11,229 nt of DNA from assembly GCA_021817755.1 (NCBI GenBank), contig JAKAGC010000062.1:1-11229 (forward strand). The letters run 5' to 3'. Within the stretch, counting starts at the first letter, position 1. Every line of letters begins with the position of its first letter. Shown here in pieces: positions 1,017-11,229 of the stretch. Made by a program: the position numbers and the translations under genes. Source of the DNA: Acidobacteriota bacterium (GTDB lineage: Bacteria; Acidobacteriota; Aminicenantia; UBA2199). Under the pieces are notes generated by a model, which saw nothing but the letters and a program-made list of their open reading frames with translations, did not search any database and was not told the DNA's origin.

Positions 1017-1034
1017 TAGATTCTTGTAGATTCT
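1017..1034. repeat. Short direct repeat at the end of the ygfK-like gene
   Basis: TAGATTCT occurs at 1017-1024 and again at 1027-1034, separated by TG. The second copy overlaps the stop codon of the minus-strand gene (TAG, complement of 1033-1035). It may be a small tandem duplication and no function is evident. Confidence 0.4.
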
Positions 1035-4000
1035 AAAAAATTTGTGCCCGATTTGACAAGAGAATACTCATTTGTACTGCATGGATTAAGGATATGGGAT
1101 TTATTGAATTGGTTTTGAGCGCTACGGATTGAATATTGAATGTATCCTTATCGAGATCTATTGTTGCCTGGGATGTTTCATAAATGTATGTGTTTTCTTT
1201 TAAAATGAGTCTCTGGAATTCTGTTCCATTTTTAAATCGAATACAGGGGAAGGTACTCTGGGATTCAAAAAAATATGCACTCTCCTCAGCTTGAAAACTT
1301 TCGTGAGTCAAACAAATTTTGGGTTTATCTCTGAATGGAGCTCCGGCTGTTGGGCAAAAGGTTTGACAGTTTCCACATTGATTACAAAAATCAGCGATAT
1401 TGACAACCTGGTAAACCTGCTTTAACTGAAATGGCTGATCTTCCTCAAGGTGATAGTGGAGGGCTTCATGACTATCTGGTATTACTTTTTTCAATTTGTA
1501 CTCTATGGGCTGAATTTGATATGCAACATTGGCACGGTTGGGGCAAAGGGTAACACAAACATTACAGACATCATCACACATTAAACACCGCTGTGCTTCT
1601 TCTTGGATTGCATACTGGGAATCCTGGTTTTCCGGAACTAAAGATGAATAAACACGATAAGCGGCTTTTTTCTGGTAATATGAAAGAGGATACTGGGGTG
1701 AATGGGAAATGGGTTTCTCCTGTTGGGGAGATATTAAATCAGCAGCTTTCAGGCCATCGGCTACACCGGTTATTATATTGGCGGGGCCACGGAGGGCATC
1801 ACCGCCTATTAGCACACTGTGGGAATGAGGGCTGGCGGATGTTCGGACATCAGTTATGGGTGTATCCTGGATAAAATCGAGTTTTACGAGTTGACCGATA
1901 GCGGTAATGACGGCGTGGGCTTCTATCTGAAACTCTGAATGATCTATTTTTATGGGCCTTCGCCTATTGCTTTGATCGGGTTCACCGAGTTGCATTTTAC
2001 AGCACGTGACACTTAATGGAAAGGAATCATGGGTTAATTGGGGGGTCTGAATGGCAAGGGGTGCGGTTAGTTGTTGAATGGTAATACCTTCGTGAAGGGC
2101 TTCTGCGATTTCTTGGGGATCAGCGGGCATTTCTTCTAATGTACGGCGGTATAAGATGATGACCTGTGAATCTGGATGAGTAAGGAGCCTTCGGGCAGTT
2201 CGGGCGGCATCGATGGCACTGTTGCCACCTCCGACTATGAGAATTTTTAGTGCTTTGTCGGAAGAGACTTTTTTTGAAAAAATGGGAGTTTGACTGGTAA
2301 AAAGGGTTTGTATTGGGGGAAGATTGGGATTATCCTGAAGAGTTTGGATTTGATGGGAAAATACAAGACGGCTGATTTTAAGAAATGTGAGTGCATCGAT
2401 AACATAGGGGGAATCTTCATTGGGGATATTCAACCGGGTACTGATGGAAGCACCTACGGCTATGTATATATGAGAATATGTTTGACGTAAGGTTTGAAAC
2501 ATTTCCTGATTTATTTTTTGATTGTAAAAAATTTGAACGCCTAGGGCCTGAATGCGTTGGATATCGATTTGAATATCTTGGGGGGAGATACGAAAGGGGG
2601 GGATGACATGAGATACTGTACCGCCGGCTATATTGGTGGCTTCGTATATATGAACGGTTACCTGACGAAGGGCAAGATAATAGGCACAAGAAAGCCCTGA
2701 AGGGCCGGCGCCAATGACAGCTACCTTAATGTTTGAAGCTTTTTTTGAGAGGTGGGGTGGCTGAGATTGGCCGTGAGTAAGGGCAAAATGTTTAATCTGG
2801 CGAATATGAAGAGAATTATCATAGTTCTGGCGGGTACAACGGTTTGTACAGGTGTGATCACATACTTTAGCGGTAGTGGATGGGAGAGAATTGGTTTGAA
2901 GGATTACATTAAGAGCATCATGATAATTGCCTGCTGCGACATGAGAAATATAGAGTGGGACATCCTGGTGAGCGGGACAGGTATATTTACAGGGTGCAGA
3001 AATACAATCAAAGGGAGTGAGAGGACGTGTGGTTTTTATGGAACTACCGGGAAAATAAGTTTTTAGATATGGGCTATGCTGGGGGTGGATAATGTGTTGG
3101 GCATACTGGTTAAGATTTTCGAGCTGAGCTTTATATAAATCTTTGGTGCGATTGGTGTTCATTTTCAATATAAATTGATGGATATCTGAGGCATCATTTT
3201 CTTTGAAAGCTTTTCGAATGTGCTGAATATATTGAGGGATACGACCATATCCACCGGGCTTGAGTAAATCGGAACAAATCGTAACGGGTTTGAGACCGGA
3301 TGCGAGAAGGGGAACAACATTGAAAGCATCGACACCTGCGGAAAAAGAAATATCGAGCTTACCGTGGAACTGCTCTTGCAATGTTGCAGCGAGGTTAATA
3401 CTGATGGGATGAAGGGCTCTTCCGCTCATATAAACGACTGGTTCATTTGGAGGGAGAACCTGGGAAGAATTGAGGGTCTCAAGGGTATTGGTGAGTTTTA
3501 GGCTAAATTGGACCTGGTTTTGTTGGGCGAGTGTTTGAAGTGATTGAATGATCTTTATTGCATCATCATATTTTAAATCATGCTGGAATGCCTGATCTGG
3601 GACTTGAGTTTTGAAACGGAGTCGTGTATTGAGTATATCTCTTACTTTTTGGGGACCTAAGAGAGTGGGATTCAATTTGATTGTGGTATGATATTTTCGA
3701 ACCTGGATTAAATAACTGGCAATTTTTTCGATTTCATCAGGGGGGCAACCGTGCATGGTGGATAAGGTGACATTGCGGGAAATGGTATCGGGGATATGGA
3801 TATCTTTTATCTGTGGATAAATACTGGAAAGACGATCGAGTTTCTCCTCTTTTTGCTGTTTACAGTTTTCCATTTGGTCGAGAAACGATTGAACGTTGGC
3901 GTTTTGAATTCCCTGGAAGTTGTACCCGATACTGATATTAAAAATAAAACCTCTTTCTTCTTGATTATGGGGGTGAAGTTTATGTTGAAGAGCATGAAGC

Positions 4001-4386
4001 AGAATCCAGGCATCGAGGTATTGATTAAAGGATTGTTGGATTAGCAATTCCTGGGACCATTCGCAGTTATAGCCTTCGTCCTGTGCATAAATACAGGGTT
4101 TGGAAACAGATAATTCATCGAGAGTTTGGATGGTTTTTAATTCGATATATCGAGCGCCGGTGAGCCAGGCGGAGATAATGTTTTGGGCGAGTTGAGTATG
4201 GGGGCCTGCGGCAACTCCGAGAGGGGTTTGGAGTGTTTCTCCGTATCGTTGCATTTTAAATGGATCTTGGGGATGGGGGGTAAAGAAAAGTTCACGAGAT
4301 ATGCCGAAGATTTGTCCTGATTTTTCTTCTTCTATTATATGTTTCCACAACCGTTCTATTGGTATATTAAAAAATTTATCGCTCAT
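1033..4386 (-). CDS. ygfK: YgfK-like iron-sulfur flavoprotein oxidoreductase (putative selenate reductase subunit family)
   Basis: This 1117-aa protein has the domain order of YgfK. Residues ~1-430 resemble a dihydroorotate-dehydrogenase-type barrel (TPLGVAAGPHTQLAQN at 54-69, STMHGCPPDEIEKIA at 209-223). Residues ~455-540 form a GltD/DPYD-type Cys-rich region (C461, C466, C470; CDHTCTNRC at 509-517). An FAD dinucleotide fold has VIGAGPSGLSCAYY at 557-570 and an NAD(P) fold has ILIVGGGNSAIDAARTARR at 715-733. Two C-terminal 4Fe-4S motif sets have Cys at 934/937/941/944/948 and 1001/1004/1007/1011. It is probably a soluble electron-transfer enzyme linking NAD(P)H to another redox partner. In E. 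coli the homologue (about 1030 aa) lies in a selenium and purine-catabolism cluster and has been linked to selenate reduction. The true substrate is unsettled, and no molybdenum hydroxylase or purine gene is visible here. The start at 4386 has SD TGAGGAAAA and a good promoter. The family call is strong; the role is not known from this sequence. Confidence 0.88.
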   Translation of the reverse strand: MSDKFFNIPIERLWKHIIEEEKSGQIFGISRELFFTPHPQDPFKMQRYGETLQTPLGVAAGPHTQLAQNIISAWLTGARYIELKTIQTLDELSVSKPCIYAQDEGYNCEWSQELLIQQSFNQYLDAWILLHALQHKLHPHNQEERGFIFNISIGYNFQGIQNANVQSFLDQMENCKQQKEEKLDRLSSIYPQIKDIHIPDTISRNVTLSTMHGCPPDEIEKIASYLIQVRKYHTTIKLNPTLLGPQKVRDILNTRLRFKTQVPDQAFQHDLKYDDAIKIIQSLQTLAQQNQVQFSLKLTNTLETLNSSQVLPPNEPVVYMSGRALHPISINLAATLQEQFHGKLDISFSAGVDAFNVVPLLASGLKPVTICSDLLKPGGYGRIPQYIQHIRKAFKENDASDIHQFILKMNTNRTKDLYKAQLENLNQYAQHIIHPQHSPYLKTYFPGSSIKTTRPLTPFDCISAPCKYTCPAHQDVPLYISHVAAGNYHDALNVILQTNSLPSTTAKVCDHTCTNRCTRQNYDNSLHIRQIKHFALTHGQSQPPHLSKKASNIKVAVIGAGPSGLSCAYYLALRQVTVHIYEATNIAGGTVSHVIPPFRISPQDIQIDIQRIQALGVQIFYNQKINQEMFQTLRQTYSHIYIAVGASISTRLNIPNEDSPYVIDALTFLKISRLVFSHQIQTLQDNPNLPPIQTLFTSQTPIFSKKVSSDKALKILIVGGGNSAIDAARTARRLLTHPDSQVIILYRRTLEEMPADPQEIAEALHEGITIQQLTAPLAIQTPQLTHDSFPLSVTCCKMQLGEPDQSNRRRPIKIDHSEFQIEAHAVITAIGQLVKLDFIQDTPITDVRTSASPHSHSVLIGGDALRGPANIITGVADGLKAADLISPQQEKPISHSPQYPLSYYQKKAAYRVYSSLVPENQDSQYAIQEEAQRCLMCDDVCNVCVTLCPNRANVAYQIQPIEYKLKKVIPDSHEALHYHLEEDQPFQLKQVYQVVNIADFCNQCGNCQTFCPTAGAPFRDKPKICLTHESFQAEESAYFFESQSTFPCIRFKNGTEFQRLILKENTYIYETSQATIDLDKDTFNIQSVALKTNSINPISLIHAVQMSILLSNRAQIF

Positions 4387-4652: not shown

Positions 4653-4665
4653 TATAATGGGATGA
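4639..4665 (+). promoter_or_regulatory. SD-like site and two-codon start-stop ORF overlapping the methyltransferase start
   Basis: AGAGGTGAT (4639-4647) matches the anti-SD tail of 16S rRNA well but ends 14 nt before the methyltransferase ATG (4662). It is better placed for an ATG at 4657, which reads Met-Gly-stop (ATGGGATGA). The TGA of this mini-ORF overlaps the methyltransferase ATG as ATGA. If the mRNA starts far enough upstream, the methyltransferase could be translated by re-initiation from this minimal ORF. It could equally be chance in a short AT-rich stretch. Confidence 0.3.
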
Positions 4666-5744
4666 AAAATACAGATACATGTCCAAAACAACTAAACGCC
4701 ATCGATTTTTTCTGTGGTGCCGGTGGTATGACTTTTGGCCTTAAACTTGCGGGTATAAATGTTCTTGCTGGAATCGATATCGACGAGGAATGCCGGGAAA
4801 CTTACGAATTGAACAATCAAAATTCTATTTTCATTCATGCAGATATAAAAAAACTAACCGAAACCGATCTTCAAAATAAAATCGATATCAAGAGAAACGA
4901 TGACTCAATGATTTTTATCGGATGTAGTCCGTGTCAATACTGGACAAAGATCAATACGCACAAAAAAAAATCAACTGAAACCAAAAACCTGCTTAATGAA
5001 TTTCGCCGATTTGTAGACTATTTCAGGCCCGGTTATATATTTATAGAAAATGTACCTGGACTATCGGGGAAAAAAGAGGAGAGCAACCTCTCAACATTTC
5101 TGGAATTTCTTGAAATAAATGATTATAAATATGATTTTAGTATTATTAATTCAAATCATTACGGAGTCCCCCAAAACAGAAAAAGATTTATTCTCATTGC
5201 TTCGCGGGTTCTGAAAAATATTAAAATACCTCCCCCGGTAAAAGATGACTCATTGGTGGTAAAGAATTTTATCGGAGAACATAAAGGATTTTCAAAAATA
5301 GAAGCTGGCTATAAGGATGAAACAAACAATCTTCATACCGCAGCTTCTCTTTCCGAGAAAAATTTATTGAGATTGAAAAAAACACCTCCTGACGGAGGTA
5401 ACCGGTGGTCCTGGAAAGACGACCCCGAACTTCAGATAAATGCATATAAAGGGAAAGACACAATTTTCCGTGATGTTTATGGTCGAATATACTGGAATAA
5501 ACCGGCTCCGACTATCACAACGAAATTCATCCGAACATCCAGCGGTCGATTCTCTCACCCGGAAGAGCATAGAGGGCTTTCATTACGGGAAGGTGCAACA
5601 TTACAAACATTTCCGAACGAATATGTCTTCAGGGGGCCGAACATCGATTCCATAGCAAGACAGATCGGCAATGCGGTTCCGCCTCAATTGGCAAGATGTA
5701 TAGGATGCGCTTTGCTAAAGGAAACAATAAATGCCGACATTTAG
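4662..5744 (+). CDS. C5-cytosine DNA methyltransferase (Dcm/type II-like)
   Basis: This 360-aa protein transfers a methyl group from S-adenosylmethionine to C5 of cytosine in DNA. The family motifs occur in order: motif I AIDFFCGAGGMTFGLKLAG (13-31, SAM binding), motif IV GCSPCQ (87-92) with catalytic Cys91, motif VI IENV (128-131), motif VIII QNRKRFILIA (171-180), a target-recognition region at about 185-300, motif IX LREGATLQTFP (308-318) and motif X IGNAVPPQLA (335-344). The length is normal for the family. Motif IV has Ser-Pro-Cys-Gln where most relatives have Pro-Pro-Cys-Gln. The target sequence cannot be read from the protein. It is the first gene of the cassette, and its last 14 bp overlap the ATPase gene. 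ATG 4662 is the first in-frame start, since an in-frame TAA lies at 4647. Pairing with a GHKL ATPase and Vsr points to a modification or defence role rather than a lone housekeeping methylase. Confidence 0.95.
   Translation: MKNTDTCPKQLNAIDFFCGAGGMTFGLKLAGINVLAGIDIDEECRETYELNNQNSIFIHADIKKLTETDLQNKIDIKRNDDSMIFIGCSPCQYWTKINTHKKKSTETKNLLNEFRRFVDYFRPGYIFIENVPGLSGKKEESNLSTFLEFLEINDYKYDFSIINSNHYGVPQNRKRFILIASRVLKNIKIPPPVKDDSLVVKNFIGEHKGFSKIEAGYKDETNNLHTAASLSEKNLLRLKKTPPDGGNRWSWKDDPELQINAYKGKDTIFRDVYGRIYWNKPAPTITTKFIRTSSGRFSHPEEHRGLSLREGATLQTFPNEYVFRGPNIDSIARQIGNAVPPQLARCIGCALLKETINADI
5717..5724 (+). promoter_or_regulatory. SD of the GHKL ATPase gene inside the methyltransferase gene
   Basis: AAAGGAAA lies inside the 3' end of the methyltransferase gene. 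Its AAAGGA core ends 8 nt before the ATG at 5731, supporting translation of the overlapping ATPase gene from that start. Confidence 0.6.
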
Positions 5745-8625
5745 AGCCAGGGCCAGAGCTGTCGATTTATTAGGGAAAGGACAAATCGCCGACTTACCTA
5801 CCGCCATTTGCGAATTATGGAAAAACGGCTATGACGCTTATGCCGATGAATTGAATTGCCACTTATATCTGAAAGGTTATAAAGACATTTCGAATCCGCT
5901 ATTCATTCTTTCAGATAATGGCTCGGGGATGAATGCGGAAGATATTAATGAAAAATGGCTCATTCTTGGAACCGATTCCAAAAAAAGAGGCGACAATCCT
6001 CCATTGTTCGGGAAACCGAAACGAATTCCCATGGGTGAAAAAGGTATCGGCAGACTTTCGGTAGCTTACCTGGGCAACCGGATGTTGATGCTGACTAAAA
6101 AACAAAATGAACCGTGCACTGCTGTTTTCATCAATTGGGCGATCCTGGAAAATTTCAATCTTTACCTGGATGGATTGAATATTCCTATCAAAGAATTCCG
6201 GGATGCCAAAGATTTCGATCATGTTTTCAAAGACCTTTTAACCGGCTTTATGGAAAACCTTAGAAAAGGAAATTGGGAAGAACACCAGCCTCTGGTCGAA
6301 AAAATCGAAAATGAAATCAATCAAACCGTTTTCCCGGATTTTATAAAGAGTGATATTCTCCCAACATTTTTATTACCGGATTCTCACGGGACATTTTTTA
6401 TTATTATCGATCCACACGAACAACTTTTATTACTTTCGGAAGAAAGCAGGATAGAGATTTCCGTTAATTCTCAAACCAACTATCTGCGATCATCACTCAG
6501 CGGATTATACGATGGATTCAGAGAAAATAACGATATCGGGACTCATTTCTGGATGCATGACAATAAAGGAAAATATGACCTGATTGCCCGACAGAACTTC
6601 TTTACCGAAGAGGATATCCGAATTGCCGATCACTGGCTTGAAGGTGAATTCGATTCAACAGGATTCTTCAAAGGTGAATTGCAGGTATTCAATACGATTA
6701 TTCCCCATACATATCGCCCCAGGCGCGCTCCGGGAGAGACTCCTTACGGACCCTTCAAAATCAAATTCGGGGTTATTGAAGGCCTTGACAGGAGCAGTAA
6801 ATTATCATCGGAACAATGGCAGACAATGAACAAAAAAATGGCAATATACGGAGGATTGTATATTTATAGAGATAAATTCAGGGTGCTTCCTTATGGACGT
6901 ACTGAGTACGATTTTTTAAAATTCGAGGAAAGAAGGACAAGAGGTGCTTCTTATTATCAATTCAGCCACCGGAGGATATTCGGATTTATCGAAATATCCA
7001 GGAACAAGAATCCCAACCTGATCGACAAAGCCGGTAGAGAAGGATTTATCGGTAATAAATCATTCAGAGAATTCGTCGAAGACCTTATCGGTTTTTTTAT
7101 CGATCTTTCCGTCAGATACTTTCGGACAGTTGCATCGGGAGAGACGCCTACTTTAAGAGAGCAGCAAGTCGAAGCCATACAGAAGCACAATGAACGCATT
7201 CTTAACCTGGAAAAAAGGCGGTCGAAACTAACACGCGCCGGTTTTGACAGGGAATTGAAACAAAATATAGAACGCCTCGATGTATTGGACCCGGAATTAA
7301 GGGAATTATATAATAAACTTGACGAAGAATCACGGAAATCCGAAATCACATATAATCATATCGAAACCGTATTCAGTGAAATTACTGCAAAAAAATCGGA
7401 ATTTAAAAACCTGAAAATAGTCAAACCCAAACGAGTTAATATTACCCAATCCCAGGAAAATAAATTTAATAATTACAATCTACGGTTGGGTAATTCATTG
7501 ATTATACTGGATAATTGCGACCGCTTGATCGAGGAAATAAACAAACGGTTAACCGAAGAATACCTGGTAACGGAATTCCATAATAAATCCGCGCAACTTA
7601 AAAAGGATATCGGTCAATCGGTTCGAAATTTTAAAAAGCGATATTCGGAAGCTGTAAAAAAACTCGAACAGGAAATCGATACCGACCGCCAGGCCTTCGA
7701 GGATTTATTCGATGAAAAAACCCATCCCATTGTTCCAACCGGTTCCGAAGAGAAAGGAGACCTTGAAAACAGACTTGTTTTGCTTGAAAAGATACATCTT
7801 GCGATAAAAGAAGAATTGGAAGAAAAATACGATAGTTTCGTCAAACACGTGGAAAATCTGACGTTTGGTATCGATGATGATTTTCTTGTGGGTTGGTACA
7901 AAGAGCAGTATGAAAAAATCGAAGAAAAAGTCGAAGCCATGCAGGAACTGGCGCAATTGGGTGTTGCCATCGAAATAATCGATCACCAATTCAATGTTCT
8001 CTATTCCGAAATGGCTGATGCCATCGATTTTTTCAAAAATTATGCTGATAAAAATGCGGAAGTAAAAGACAACTTTTCTCAATTGAAAGAATCCTTTCAG
8101 CATCTTGAGAGCAACCATCATTTATTGACACCGCTTTACAGGACGACCCGCAGAATAAAATCGGAAATATGGGGGAAAGATATTATAGACTATATGAAGA
8201 AATTTTTCGCAGACAACCTTCGAAAATACCGGGTATCTCTGACTTCGGACAGATCATTCGATAACTATTGCATTTATGGATACGAATCCGTGATAAAACC
8301 GGTTTTTATAAATATAATCAATAATGCCTTCTTTTGGCTAATACCTGTTAAAGACAGGAAAATACACCTTGCTTACGAAGATGGAAAAATATTGATTATG
8401 AATTCCGGAGAACCCATCGATCCTTCCTACAAAGAAGATATCTTCACGTTGTTCTTTACTCGAAAACCTGCGGGCAGAGGAATCGGACTCTGGATTGCAA
8501 GAACCAATCTAAGGGCTCATGGTTTTGATATAAATTGCACTTTCGATAAAAAATATAATAGATTAAACGGGGCCTGTTTTGTGATAGAGCCTTATGATAA
8601 AAAAAGGGAGAAAGATGAGTTATGA
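5731..8625 (+). CDS. Dual GHKL protein: MutL/MORC-like ATPase fused to a histidine-kinase-like domain
   Basis: This 964-aa protein has no membrane segment or signal peptide, so it is expected in the cytosol. An N-terminal GHKL ATPase spans about 1-240: ICELWKNGYDAYADE (26-40) holds the catalytic Glu28 and Mg-binding Asn32, SDNGSGM (61-67) is the nucleotide-binding DxGxG, and MGEKGIGRLS (101-110) is the lid GxxGxG. Region ~240-470, with IYRDKFRVLPYGR at 378-390, resembles the transducer domain of MutL/MORC/Hsp90-type ATPases. Charged, helix-rich stretches at ~475-560 and ~610-735 look like coiled coils. The C-terminus resembles a histidine kinase: LAQLGVAIEIIDHQFN (740-755) with candidate phospho-acceptor His752, N-box FINIINNA (859-866), IFTLFFTRK (904-912) and G-box GRGIGLWIAR (915-924). 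The kinase G1 motif reads MNSGEPI (890-896), with Asn for the usual Asp. The gene lies between a DNA methylase and a receiver gene, so a sensor that relays to the receiver is likely (inference). GHKL ATPases of the MutL/MORC type are known in restriction-modification operons. Confidence 0.85.
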   Translation: MPTFRARARAVDLLGKGQIADLPTAICELWKNGYDAYADELNCHLYLKGYKDISNPLFILSDNGSGMNAEDINEKWLILGTDSKKRGDNPPLFGKPKRIPMGEKGIGRLSVAYLGNRMLMLTKKQNEPCTAVFINWAILENFNLYLDGLNIPIKEFRDAKDFDHVFKDLLTGFMENLRKGNWEEHQPLVEKIENEINQTVFPDFIKSDILPTFLLPDSHGTFFIIIDPHEQLLLLSEESRIEISVNSQTNYLRSSLSGLYDGFRENNDIGTHFWMHDNKGKYDLIARQNFFTEEDIRIADHWLEGEFDSTGFFKGELQVFNTIIPHTYRPRRAPGETPYGPFKIKFGVIEGLDRSSKLSSEQWQTMNKKMAIYGGLYIYRDKFRVLPYGRTEYDFLKFEERRTRGASYYQFSHRRIFGFIEISRNKNPNLIDKAGREGFIGNKSFREFVEDLIGFFIDLSVRYFRTVASGETPTLREQQVEAIQKHNERILNLEKRRSKLTRAGFDRELKQNIERLDVLDPELRELYNKLDEESRKSEITYNHIETVFSEITAKKSEFKNLKIVKPKRVNITQSQENKFNNYNLRLGNSLIILDNCDRLIEEINKRLTEEYLVTEFHNKSAQLKKDIGQSVRNFKKRYSEAVKKLEQEIDTDRQAFEDLFDEKTHPIVPTGSEEKGDLENRLVLLEKIHLAIKEELEEKYDSFVKHVENLTFGIDDDFLVGWYKEQYEKIEEKVEAMQELAQLGVAIEIIDHQFNVLYSEMADAIDFFKNYADKNAEVKDNFSQLKESFQHLESNHHLLTPLYRTTRRIKSEIWGKDIIDYMKKFFADNLRKYRVSLTSDRSFDNYCIYGYESVIKPVFINIINNAFFWLIPVKDRKIHLAYEDGKILIMNSGEPIDPSYKEDIFTLFFTRKPAGRGIGLWIARTNLRAHGFDINCTFDKKYNRLNGACFVIEPYDKKREKDEL
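8606..8614 (+). promoter_or_regulatory. SD that selects the downstream start of the receiver gene
   Basis: GGGAG (8606-8610) is followed by AAAG and then ATG at 8615. The alternative in-frame ATG at 8594 has no comparable SD upstream and would only add MIKKGRK, so 8615 is preferred. Confidence 0.55.
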
Positions 8626-10354
8626 TTCCGTAGCCAACGAAATCGTTTCAAATTCCATCCGGTCTGCGATTTGTATCGATGACGAAAATGTCGGGCCCTA
8701 TGACGATGTAGAGAAGAAAAAAAGGGATAAATCAAAACAACTCTGGGAATCATTCAAAAAAAGTAATTGCAGCCTGGATATTTATACTTTTAAAGATTAT
8801 TCTCAATTGCAGAAAGAGTCGGAATTCATTTTTAAGAACCGGGACTTAATGATCCTGGATTGGGAGCTGTCCAATGAACAAGGCCAGGACAAATTCAAAG
8901 ATACGCTCTATATTTTGAAAGATGCGGTCGAAAATCCCGGATTGGCTTTCGTTTTAATTTACACAAAAGTATCCGGAAACGGGTTAGACGGCATTGAGAT
9001 GCAGATTCGTTCCTATTTCAACCAAAAAAACACTAGTATGGAAGAAAGAGACCAAAAATACTTCGAACTCCTCTCATCTCTCAATGATGAATTCTTTTTC
9101 AAAGAAACCGGCGATAATATCCCGGACAGTGCTGAGACATTTTTTAAAGAGATAGAGATACAAAATGCCTTTGGAGACTTTTTTATGAAAGGGCCAGCGG
9201 ATGAAGCAATAAAAGAGTTTAAAACTTTAATCAGAAAATATTTTCATGATAATACAATCGGCGGCAAATTTTACAAACTCTTCGAGGAAAAAATCACGAA
9301 ATTATACAATTGTAATACCCTCTTTGAAGGATGCGAGCAATTGGAATTTCACCTTAAAAAAACATTTATTGCAGAAGAATTACTTCCTTCGTCTCTATAC
9401 TGCCATAAAATACATAACCGTACTCATGCACTATGGAGTAATAATACATACATTATTATTTTTAATAAAAACGAATTTACTCCGAAAAAAGTATACAAGG
9501 AATTTTCCGAGTCTCTTTATAAAAAACCCGGGAGTATAATGACATTAATTTCCCTTGAGATGAAAAACAATTTTAAAGAGAATTCGGCGAAAGTCGGGAA
9601 AGATTTGCTGGCTGTAGATGAGCTTGCATTTTTCCATCATCATGGAACATTGAAAGATAATGAAGAGTTTTACGATTTCTTAAGAAATAACTGGAAACAC
9701 CAGGTGGCTTTGTTTCATTTGAATTCGGATTTAAAAATATTCCCTGTATTGGAAGAGTATATCAAAAATAATCATATCAATGAGCAAATCGATAAAAAGA
9801 AGAAAGGAAGCAATCCGGATTGTTTCCGAAAAGAACTAGCCAGATTAAATTACCAATACTCGTTCCACCATGCTGTAAGGAAAGAAAAAGACTATCTACG
9901 ATTCGGAGATATTTTCAATATCAGGGACTCGGCGGAATCCAAATCCACCAGAACCGATAAATATCTATTGAATATCACCGCTCATTGCGATTGTCTGAGA
10001 CCTACAAAGATCTATTACCATTTCCATTTTGTACGCGGACAAAAATACAATTTAAATAACGCATTGGAAAATGCAACAAGCGATAATCATTGTTTTTCAT
10101 TTTACTTTCGAGATAATGAACCACTCTGTATATCCTGGGATACCAAACCCTTTACGATTTACATACCGGAAACAAATCGTTTTTTTTCTCCCGAATCCTC
10201 GATAGAAATAAATATCGATAAAGAAACGAAATTTCTTTGCTATGAAGGGATGTTGTTGGAGAATTATGCACAAAGAATCGCCAATAAATCATTCGCTCAT
10301 GCCGCACGAGTCGGAATAGACCTTTTGGAATGGAAAGTAGAACATAAAAAATAA
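8615..10354 (+). CDS. Receiver-domain protein with large uncharacterised C-terminal region
   Basis: With the start at 8615 the protein has 579 aa (586 if ATG 8594 is used), and 11 bp overlap the kinase gene. Residues ~10-185 read as a response-regulator receiver domain with every key position: acidic pair Asp22-Asp23 after strand 1 (SAICIDDENV), phospho-acceptor Asp82 (LMILDWEL), Thr117 (FVLIYTKVS) and Lys163 (EFFFKETG). The loops are longer than in CheY-type receivers, which suits a divergent family. No helix-turn-helix or other DNA-binding output was recognised. The remaining ~390 residues are soluble and not assigned. They include a His cluster AFFHHHGT (338-345), RFGDIFNIRD (429-438) and ITAHCDC (454-460). 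A strand followed by a Cys-Asp motif is reminiscent of a CD motif I associate with uncharacterised bacterial proteins, but this is weak. The cognate kinase is most likely the upstream gene product. The C-terminus could be an effector or a docking platform. Function is inferred from domain pairing only. Confidence 0.75.
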   Translation: MSYDSVANEIVSNSIRSAICIDDENVGPYDDVEKKKRDKSKQLWESFKKSNCSLDIYTFKDYSQLQKESEFIFKNRDLMILDWELSNEQGQDKFKDTLYILKDAVENPGLAFVLIYTKVSGNGLDGIEMQIRSYFNQKNTSMEERDQKYFELLSSLNDEFFFKETGDNIPDSAETFFKEIEIQNAFGDFFMKGPADEAIKEFKTLIRKYFHDNTIGGKFYKLFEEKITKLYNCNTLFEGCEQLEFHLKKTFIAEELLPSSLYCHKIHNRTHALWSNNTYIIIFNKNEFTPKKVYKEFSESLYKKPGSIMTLISLEMKNNFKENSAKVGKDLLAVDELAFFHHHGTLKDNEEFYDFLRNNWKHQVALFHLNSDLKIFPVLEEYIKNNHINEQIDKKKKGSNPDCFRKELARLNYQYSFHHAVRKEKDYLRFGDIFNIRDSAESKSTRTDKYLLNITAHCDCLRPTKIYYHFHFVRGQKYNLNNALENATSDNHCFSFYFRDNEPLCISWDTKPFTIYIPETNRFFSPESSIEINIDKETKFLCYEGMLLENYAQRIANKSFAHAARVGIDLLEWKVEHKK

Positions 10355-10362
10355 ATATTTCT

Positions 10363-10812
10363 ATGGACATTTATCCTGAAATAAAAAGAAGTGAAATAAT
10401 GTCAAAGATTTCCGGGAAAAATACCAAACCGGAGATGGACATCAGGAAATTCTTATTCTCAAAGGGGTTCAGATACCGAATCGATGACAATAGATATCCG
10501 GGAAGGCCGGATATCGTTTTACCGAAATTTAAAACTTCGATATTCATTCATGGATGTTTCTGGCATGCTCATCCCGGATGTAAAGCCGCAACCCTGCCGA
10601 CCACAAGGAGTGCATTCTGGGAGAAAAAGATAAATAATAATAAATTAAGAGATGAACGGAATATCGAAGAATTGAGAAAGAACGGCTGGAATGTTATTAC
10701 TATATGGCAGTGCGAAATAAAAAATATGGCATCAAGAAAAAACCGATTGGAAAAATTGCTCCTGGAAATCACAGATAAAAGCTTTAACAGCGAAAACTCT
10801 AACGATCACTAA
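10363..10812 (+). CDS. vsr: Vsr-family (very short patch repair) DNA endonuclease
   Basis: This 149-aa protein matches Vsr over its full length. E. coli Vsr nicks next to T:G mismatches that arise from deamination of 5-methylcytosine at Dcm sites. Landmarks are SKISGKNTKPEM (14-25) with Glu24, PGRPDIV (46-52) with catalytic metal-binding Asp50, IHGCFWHAHPGC (62-73) with His63 and His68, and WQC (115-117). Zinc ligands correspond as Cys65, His70, Cys73 and Cys117, with one residue more between His70 and Cys73 than in the E. coli enzyme. Ile62 sits where E. coli has Thr63. The gene begins 8 bp after the receiver gene and has no SD, so it may depend on coupled translation. The ATG at 10363 gives the normal family N-terminus; a later ATG at 10399 would remove it. 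With a cytosine methylase in the same operon it could repair T:G mismatches at the methylated site or act as the cassette's restriction nuclease; Vsr-like nucleases are known in both settings. Confidence 0.93.
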   Translation: MDIYPEIKRSEIMSKISGKNTKPEMDIRKFLFSKGFRYRIDDNRYPGRPDIVLPKFKTSIFIHGCFWHAHPGCKAATLPTTRSAFWEKKINNNKLRDERNIEELRKNGWNVITIWQCEIKNMASRKNRLEKLLLEITDKSFNSENSNDH

Positions 10813-11093: not shown

Positions 11094-11113
11094 AAAAAGA
11101 CGAATTCTTTTTT
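11094..11113. terminator. Probable bidirectional terminator between vsr (+) and deoC (-)
   Basis: AAAAAGA (11094-11100) pairs with TCTTTTT (11106-11112) around the loop CGAAT. On the plus strand it ends in a run of T; on the minus strand it likewise ends in T-rich sequence. It begins 8 bp after the deoC stop on the minus strand. Convergent genes often share such a hairpin. The stem has only one G-C pair, so the call is moderate. Confidence 0.45.
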
Positions 11114-11120
11114 AATTCAA

Positions 11121-11229
11121 TTATGTTTCTTCGTGCTGGGTGACAATTTTTACACTAGAAGATGCACCGATCCTATCTGCTCCGGCATCGATCATCTTTA
11201 ATGCATCCTCACGGGTACGAATCCCACCG
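11121..11229 (-). CDS. deoC: Deoxyribose-phosphate aldolase, C-terminal end (partial)
   Basis: The last 35 codons are in the window, and the stop TAA is the complement of 11121-11123. The visible sequence begins [19 protein letters not shown] and continues [10 protein letters not shown], the family's conserved C-terminal phosphate-binding region (GG(V/I)RT..DAL, GA.RIG.S). DeoC splits 2-deoxyribose-5-phosphate into glyceraldehyde-3-phosphate and acetaldehyde in nucleoside catabolism. The catalytic Lys residues lie outside the window. It ends in a short TQHEET tail. The gene converges on the cassette. Confidence 0.88.

Follow-up and report, generated by a model that had tools for sequence, protein, structure and literature searches.

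A methylase, a MORC-like ATPase/histidine kinase, a probably split receiver and Vsr in a candidate methylation-linked restriction or defence cassette of an Acidobacteriota bacterium

A four-gene cassette

The 11,229-bp contig JAKAGC010000062.1 of an Acidobacteriota bacterium, analysed over its whole length and called the window below, contains four plus-strand genes in its open reading frame (ORF) list. They encode a C5-cytosine DNA methyltransferase (methylase, 4662-5744), a MORC-like ATPase fused to a histidine kinase (kinase, 5731-8625), a response regulator (receiver, 8594 or 8615-10354) and a Vsr mismatch endonuclease (10363-10812). The window almost certainly holds a member of the HEF_HK/Response_reg_2 class linked to restriction-modification (R-M) that was predicted in 2021 (PMC8011034, in the part of that report drawn on here). 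A first-pass annotation made from the sequence alone had described overlaps of 14 and 11 bp and a gap of 8 bp between these same-strand genes, and this spacing is borne out. The methylase and kinase ORFs overlap by 14 bp (5731-5744), as they do in three related loci (L002, L003 and L004), and 8 bp separate the receiver from Vsr. The kinase and receiver overlap by 32 bp if the receiver begins at the longest-ORF start, 8594, and by 11 bp if it begins at the ATG at 8615. The latter start is the best choice because three observations agree: the 11-bp overlap itself, the protein-database gene call of 579 amino acids (aa), which fits a start at 8615, and the likewise 11-bp overlap in L003 and L004. 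Receiver residue numbers are counted from 8594 (586-aa form).

In the Pfam scan, the methylase (360 aa) matches DNA_methylase (PF00145, E 2.6e-56), the kinase carries HATPase_c_3, HEF_HK and HATPase_c, the receiver carries Response_reg_2 (PF19192, E 9e-20), and Vsr (149 aa) matches its own family (E 1e-30). The methylase and Vsr also score above cut-off for TIGR00675 and TIGR00632, respectively, and Vsr matches the E. coli enzyme (1cw0) with E 8e-28. Pfam, NCBIfam and structural matches thus agree with the earlier domain identities of a methylase, a MutL/MORC-type N-terminus joined to a kinase C-terminus, a receiver and Vsr. The only C5 methylase match and the only Vsr match in this 4.74-Mb assembly (811 contigs, 79.6% complete, the window being one entire contig) both lie within the cassette, and therefore the grouping is not due to chance. 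The nearest relatives come mostly from Candidatus Aminicenantes metagenome-assembled genomes and in one case from an Omnitrophota genome of the same kind, which makes a host within Aminicenantes likely.

A MORC-like ATPase joined to a histidine kinase

The kinase (964 aa, 5731-8625) is arranged as HATPase_c_3, coiled coil, HEF_HK and HATPase_c, and its structure matches combine MORC3/SMCHD1-like and histidine-kinase folds within one protein. Residues 1-480 (5731-7170) match the structures of MORC3 and SMCHD1, with HSP90-type chains close behind, and comprise a GHKL ATPase followed by an S5-like transducer; the protein is therefore a MORC-like ATPase module continued by a histidine kinase. The HEF_HK domain (7954-8154; PF19191, E 3e-23) includes H752 (7984-7986), the predicted phospho-accepting histidine, and the C-terminal HATPase_c (aa 856-952, 8296-8586) is the kinase catalytic domain. 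In an alignment of 63 rows selected from the best 120 of 2143 matches, E28, N32, D62, H752, N861, N865 and G915-G919 are invariant. The AlphaFold2 (AF2) model has a predicted local distance difference test score (pLDDT) of 78.5 and a predicted template modelling score (pTM) of 0.56.

A probably split receiver with a conserved output domain

The receiver (579 aa, 8615-10354) was aligned in 99 rows selected from 117 matches, in which D29, D89, T124 and K292 are invariant and D30 is found in 77%. D89 (8858-8860) is the predicted phospho-acceptor, accompanied by D29, D30 and T124. In the AF2 model (pLDDT 91.9, pTM 0.89), about 130 helical residues precede the fifth strand of the receiver, and this helical insert (about aa 145-275, 9026-9418) breaks the receiver ahead of that strand. 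The stretch that Pfam assigns to Response_reg_2 (aa 21-171) excludes both strand 5 and the invariant K292 (9467-9469), which stands at the end of strand 5 (residues 285-291 in the model). The model indicates that the receiver is probably split by the insert, with K292 as its lysine, whereas the 2021 authors placed the whole receiver, lysine included, in one domain (PMC8011034, same part). The residues that define the class, namely the HEF_HK histidine and the aspartate, acidic pair, threonine and lysine of the receiver, are all present, the lysine being K292, past the insert.

Beyond the receiver lies a C-terminal output domain (aa 430-577, 9881-10324) composed of strands and a C-terminal helix, with the motif GDIF...TxxCDC...QRxxN. 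Its C465 and N564 are invariant in all 99 rows. A profile of this domain (31 rows) also retrieved proteins outside PF19192, and hhalign joined the output-domain families with E 9e-9 (probability 95.7, 50 columns) and the whole receivers with E 7e-8 (probability 94.6, 133 columns). Across 11 output-domain sequences from several families, G438, C465, D466, R572 and G574 are invariant. This domain, which we call the C-D output domain, connects the class with additional kinase-receiver families that are linked to methylases but lie beyond the reach of PF19192. Pfam, NCBIfam and solved sequences yielded no known family or function for it and no match to a DNA-binding family. A search of solved structures with the receiver profile returned three helical designs or bundles only (E 0.03 or worse), and the VIA list for the receiver was taken up by receiver domains, the output domain being barely covered. 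A PemK/MazF-like fold (PF02452) was hinted at by structure and gained no support from sequence: the top viral Foldseek row had a probability of 0.97 but an E value of 0.011, and hhalign against 18 PemK-family sequences gave a probability of 0.1, no better than shuffled columns. One 543-aa protein of the receiver family (P0308) additionally carries PF13310.

Related loci and the genes that follow the receiver

The receiver alone served to find fifty other loci; 38 came from receiver relatives and 12 from three Pfam censuses, and 49 were counted after exclusion of one that holds only a receiver fragment (L037). A locus fetched through a second HEF_HK copy (L057) stands outside the set of 50 and is included in the distance sets where its genes were found. 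The kinase is present in 47 of the 49 loci, a C5 methylase in 45 within the stretch read, and Vsr in 25. The contigs of L029 and L031 begin at the receiver. Two of the four loci with no C5 methylase (L018 and L029) lie on contigs that begin too late to show one; L034 ends 109 bp past the receiver, and none of its upstream genes that were scanned is a methylase; L028 has an N6_Mtase/Eco57I-type protein downstream of the receiver. L002, L003 and L004 share the four-gene order of the window at 57-81% protein identity, and in these three and the window Vsr alone comes after the receiver.

We defined a follower as the first same-strand gene no more than 300 bp after the receiver, labelled by similarity to Pfam-scanned representatives. 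By this rule 32 of the 49 loci have a follower: an OLD-like ATPase in nine, an HNH-type protein in eight, Vsr in seven, NOV_C in two, a McrB-like AAA protein in two and an unnamed 553-aa protein in one, leaving three without a label (the L028 methylase, a secretion-tail protein in L051 that is probably unrelated to the cassette, and a protein in L052 with no Pfam match). The label OLD-like denotes AAA_15/AAA_21 matches only. The 17 loci that lack a follower comprise two with an antisense HNH_2 gene (L010 and L017), two with an antisense Vsr, three with a convergent methylase, five with less than 800 bp of contig and five with no labelled follower, among them L053, which has an antisense DUF6602 protein. 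Similar proteins of 553-562 aa lie beside or near the cassettes of L036 (11611-13272) and L025 (13676-15364), and the one in L036 matches nothing in Pfam or NCBIfam. Niabella hibiscisoli has two frame-broken cassette copies near contig ends, on two contigs of one genome (L038 and L039), which are either decayed copies or assembly effects.

Inheritance of the kinase-receiver pair and of Vsr

Identity distances of kinase and receiver correlate at 0.92 over 42 loci, and those of methylase and kinase at 0.45 over the same number. The distances of the OLD-like gene, compared in nine loci, correlate with the methylase at r 0.865 (3 of 2000 permutations) and with the kinase at 0.19; L007 was left out of this comparison, its OLD-labelled ORF lying about 7 kb beyond the cassette. 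The locus of Altibacter lentus (L008) and L047 share 74% identity in the methylase and 91% in the OLD-like protein, and only 30% in the kinase and 24% in the receiver, the last over 91 residues only. The outer genes are thus kept while the middle pair differs, as would be expected if kinase and receiver formed an exchangeable signalling unit.

Vsr is found on both sides of the core and in both orientations, and the count of 25 loci rises to 26 with L029, in which a Vsr-like ORF had been hidden by an overlap filter. In the 22 loci with all four genes, Vsr distances correlate with those of the methylase at 0.66 and with those of the kinase at 0.39. A partial Mantel test of Vsr against methylase with the kinase held fixed gives r 0.58, with 0 of 2000 permutations as high, whereas Vsr against kinase with the methylase held fixed gives r 0.04, with 613 of 2000 as high. 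When loci are left out one at a time, the difference between methylase and kinase stays at 0.21 to 0.31, and without the four Aminicenantes loci the partial correlations are 0.58 and 0.24 (18 loci). Vsr is therefore inherited with the methylase, as is the OLD-like gene in nine relatives. The window Vsr also retains the residues of E. coli Vsr by sequence comparison with 1cw0. On this comparative evidence Vsr is probably a repair enzyme associated with the methylase and not an effector nuclease.

Four loci with a methylase other than C5 (L028, L098, L100 and L103) have no Vsr match, and some C5 loci likewise lack one; the direction fits an association of Vsr with C5 methylases rather than amino-methylases, but with only four non-C5 loci this is suggestive only. 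In L099, a C5-methylase cassette from the same phylum as the window, no Vsr match was found, and a 222-aa HhH-GPD glycosylase (9703-10371) directly follows the receiver. Among its PDB matches are the G-T mismatch enzyme 1kea (4e-38) and MutY proteins (1e-44), and it scores 184.5 of the 286.5 bits required for the mutY equivalog. It may be Mig- or MutY-like and could be a short MutY; since MutY chains outscore 1kea, its support for the repair reading is weak. A Vsr-like protein in L033 (5466-5912) lacks the HGCFWH segment and is perhaps a different enzyme.

Wider families, mobility and distribution

Beyond PF19192, receivers of about 400 aa (L098, 7841-9160; L100, 9191-10402 on the minus strand; L103, 8980-10209) stand beside an amino-methylase and a HATPase_c_3/HATPase_c kinase. 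In these three loci an N6_N4_Mtase-type methylase is combined with a kinase of 745-756 aa and a receiver of 403-439 aa, and only one of the 105 database proteins of this receiver family has a Pfam domain. The receiver of L099 is 482 aa long. L108, near a contig end, combines a C5 methylase with a kinase of 738 aa and a receiver of 357 aa, and a kinase-receiver pair like it is found on an Enterobacter mori plasmid with no annotated methylase (L107); the receivers of these two and of Campylobacter plasmids measure 340-357 aa. The L108 receiver matches 44 plasmid records, of which 41 are from Campylobacter and 41 are typed as conjugative. Two Campylobacter conjugative plasmids (L109 and L110) encode a kinase and a C-D-domain receiver, with a C5 methylase gene in convergent orientation. 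The portion of PMC6145009 used here lists a cytosine methyltransferase together with a histidine kinase on one Campylobacter plasmid of this sort and does not discuss them. On two plasmids the methylase-kinase-receiver core has neither a Vsr match nor a labelled nuclease beside it. On a Rhizobium plasmid (L106) the order is different, namely kinase, receiver, C5 methylase and Vsr.

A plasmid search with the window kinase gave 75 records, three of them covered over at least 80%, while the window and L099 receivers matched none and the L100 receiver matched one. PF19192 is found above cut-off in 3 of 297 genomes of the phylum of the window, its own included, and in none of six other listed genomes of its family; in the classes of L008 and L012 it is found in 8 of 395 and 4 of 369 genomes, each count including the seed genome. 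The cassette is thus uncommon and unevenly spread, a distribution that mobile cargo would be expected to show. Kinase residues 377-953 strongly match phrog_8137, a PHROGs viral family of unknown function (E 1.5e-88), and therefore relatives of the kinase occur in viral records. The window receiver has no match in PHROGs, 110 pattern stretches in viral contigs held no receiver relative, and among 50,697 phage records two match the kinase in part and none the L107 receiver. E. coli genomes gave no match to two DNA queries, which diverged copies could escape.

Comparison with known systems

Bellieny-Rabelo, Pretorius and Moleleki defined HEF_HK and Response_reg_2 in 2021 and reported 91.6% linkage of the two in 644 regions, with C5 methylases upstream and with HNH and further nucleases in the vicinity. 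They found Vsr in 20 genera, its commonest position being immediately after the receiver, noted a relationship to paraMORC and proposed a signalling role linked to R-M (PMC8011034, in the portion cited above). The window shares with that class (PF19191/PF19192) the order HATPase_c_3, HEF_HK and HATPase_c, which is their group 1 (174 of 222), the adjacent Response_reg_2 gene, the C5 methylase upstream and the Vsr directly downstream, the last common but not universal there. The suggestion of a possibly undescribed class consequently falls, the arrangement having been published in PMC8011034. The same portion does not treat the output domain, co-inheritance of Vsr and methylase, the core swap or the families missed by PF19192.

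The resemblance to MORC-type R-M operons noted in the first-pass annotation holds. MORC and paraMORC operons, whose helicase-bearing members were described by Iyer et al. in 2008, share with the window a MORC-like GHKL and S5-like module, a C5 methylase and Vsr in one operon, whereas kinase and receiver are extra in the window (PMC2292703, in the sections used here). According to the same sections, a superfamily II helicase is present in about 70% of MORC neighbourhoods; none was recognised among the window ORFs scanned, as the annotation had stated, in a contig of only 11,229 bp with flanks beyond reach. The GHKL restriction enzymes of the BbrUII/HgiDII type (NF050001) are related to the N-terminal GHKL domain, with the likeness confined to aa 10-140. 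Detocs uses two-component logic in phage defence, although with different proteins. CapK/CapS has a GHKL kinase that adjoins immune operons and reacts to DNA damage; unlike the window, it comprises an HTH-STAS-GHKL kinase and a STAS-wHTH repressor phosphorylated on serine, with no His-Asp relay (PMC13373217, part used here). VcSduA, a GHKL-type Shedu, likewise serves in phage defence with a GHKL ATPase that is presumed to regulate a nuclease, but is a single protein with a PD-(D/E)xK domain and no kinase, receiver or methylase (PMC12137116, part used here).

Proposed mechanism and alternatives

We propose, with a probability of roughly 55%, that the cassette is a methylation-linked, phosphorelay-gated restriction or defence system of the HEF_HK/Response_reg_2 class. 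The layout, the domain anatomy, the conservation of ATP-binding and His-Asp residues and the co-inheritance of kinase and receiver are observed. A phosphorelay probably operates, and a purpose in defence or restriction is likely, if a little less so. In the proposed mechanism, the methylase would mark host sites and the MORC-like module of the kinase would clamp or monitor DNA. Unmarked, damaged or invading DNA would cause the kinase to autophosphorylate at H752, the phosphate would pass to D89 of the split receiver, and phosphorylation would free the C-D output domain, which may act itself or license a nuclease. Vsr would mend the T:G mismatches that arise by deamination of 5-methylcytosine at the sites of the methylase. 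Many relatives carry a nuclease-like gene (OLD-like, HNH, NOV_C or McrB-like AAA) immediately downstream of the receiver. No dedicated restriction nuclease was recognised in the window, where the acting part would therefore have to be the output domain or an unlinked partner. Our first guess, a tentative one, is the output domain itself, with an unlinked partner next. We offer as more speculative still that the families make up a broad superfamily pairing a DNA methylase with an exchangeable MORC-like ATPase/histidine kinase-receiver engine with a new C-D output domain, the specificity parts of the HEF_HK systems staying together and restriction being gated by a DNA-clamp-driven phosphorelay.

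Several points weigh against the proposed gating. The window has no recognised dedicated restriction nuclease, Vsr being the sole nuclease recognised. The kinase model is of moderate confidence, with pLDDT below 50 at residues 733-751 near H752, and the G1 box has N891 (8401-8403), nearly invariant in the family alignment, at a position where aspartate is usual, although CusS-type kinases carry the same change. Judging by the core swap between L008 and L047, the target sequence of the methylase is probably not read by the kinase, which weakens simple sensing of missing methylation at methylase sites. The OLD-like correlations come from nine loci only, Mantel tests on identity distances presume comparable rates, and removal of L033 together with the Aminicenantes set narrows the Vsr contrast to 0.50 against 0.22 (17 loci). 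PADLOC-DB 2023, a release that predates newer systems, gave no receiver match and weak kinase matches only, and our literature search found no phage, plasmid or biochemical assay of the class.

Other explanations fit parts of the same evidence. The 2021 authors suggested signalling control of R-M, in which a cytoplasmic two-component pair adjusts the expression or activity of the methylase and of R-M genes, where present, with no direct DNA cutting (PMC8011034, part cited above). An intact kinase and receiver inherited as a unit agree with this, but the output domain resembles no DNA-binding family in the searches described and a MORC-like ATPase module takes the place of the usual sensor, and we regard this explanation as unlikely. 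It is more improbable still that the MORC-like ATPase protein is itself a restriction enzyme of the BbrUII/HgiDII kind that forms a type II R-M pair with the methylase, the phosphorelay serving as a switch. Kinase residues 10-140 do match NF050001 (E 2e-14), relatives in L098 and L099 match it too, and the two plasmid cores have neither Vsr nor a labelled nuclease. However, the match spans the GHKL domain only and reaches 52.9 of the curated cut-off of 550 bits, Pfam, PADLOC-DB and NCBIfam scans recognised no nuclease domain in the kinase, no cognate restriction endonuclease was recognised beside the methylase in the window, and the OLD-like gene, where present, co-varies with the methylase.

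The first-pass annotation had cast Vsr as the nuclease arm, and as the only nuclease recognised in the window, directly after the receiver there and in L002-L004, it is the obvious candidate for an effector switched on by the phosphorelay. We doubt this strongly: with the other gene controlled, Vsr tracks the methylase and not the kinase, it is present in only about half of the loci in both orientations and on either side, it keeps the E. coli residues, it is absent from the two plasmid cores, and L099 has a glycosylase in the place after the receiver; the non-C5 loci point the same way, though suggestively only. Least probable of all is that the cassette is a relic, the restriction nuclease having been lost from a formerly complete system of which the methylase and some remnants are left. 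The nuclease-like gene that often follows the receiver in relatives is indeed not recognised in the window, but all four frames are open with key residues, the same gene order in L002-L004 indicates that the cassette is kept, and the three-gene core is found on plasmids.

If the phosphorelay is real, a DNA-binding MORC-like ATPase would use His-Asp phosphotransfer to license cutting, or some other output, of a restriction-type system, and an R-M system could in this way be kept from attacking its own host. What MORC-type modules sense could then also be studied in bacteria. Co-inheritance and the core swap make the roles testable, with Vsr as repair enzyme, the flanking nuclease-like gene as specificity partner and kinase with receiver as engine, and the conserved C-D output domain, for which no known function was found, is a further target.

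Flanking genes

To the left of the cassette, on the minus strand, lie an ORF resembling polysaccharide deacetylase (3-899), slightly below the Pfam cut-off, and a putative YgfK-type selenate reductase subunit (1033-4386), above the NCBIfam cut-off. To the right, 11104-11229 on the minus strand encodes what we take to be the terminal part of a deoxyribose-phosphate aldolase (DeoC). Genes that look like housekeeping genes thus appear to border the cassette on both sides.

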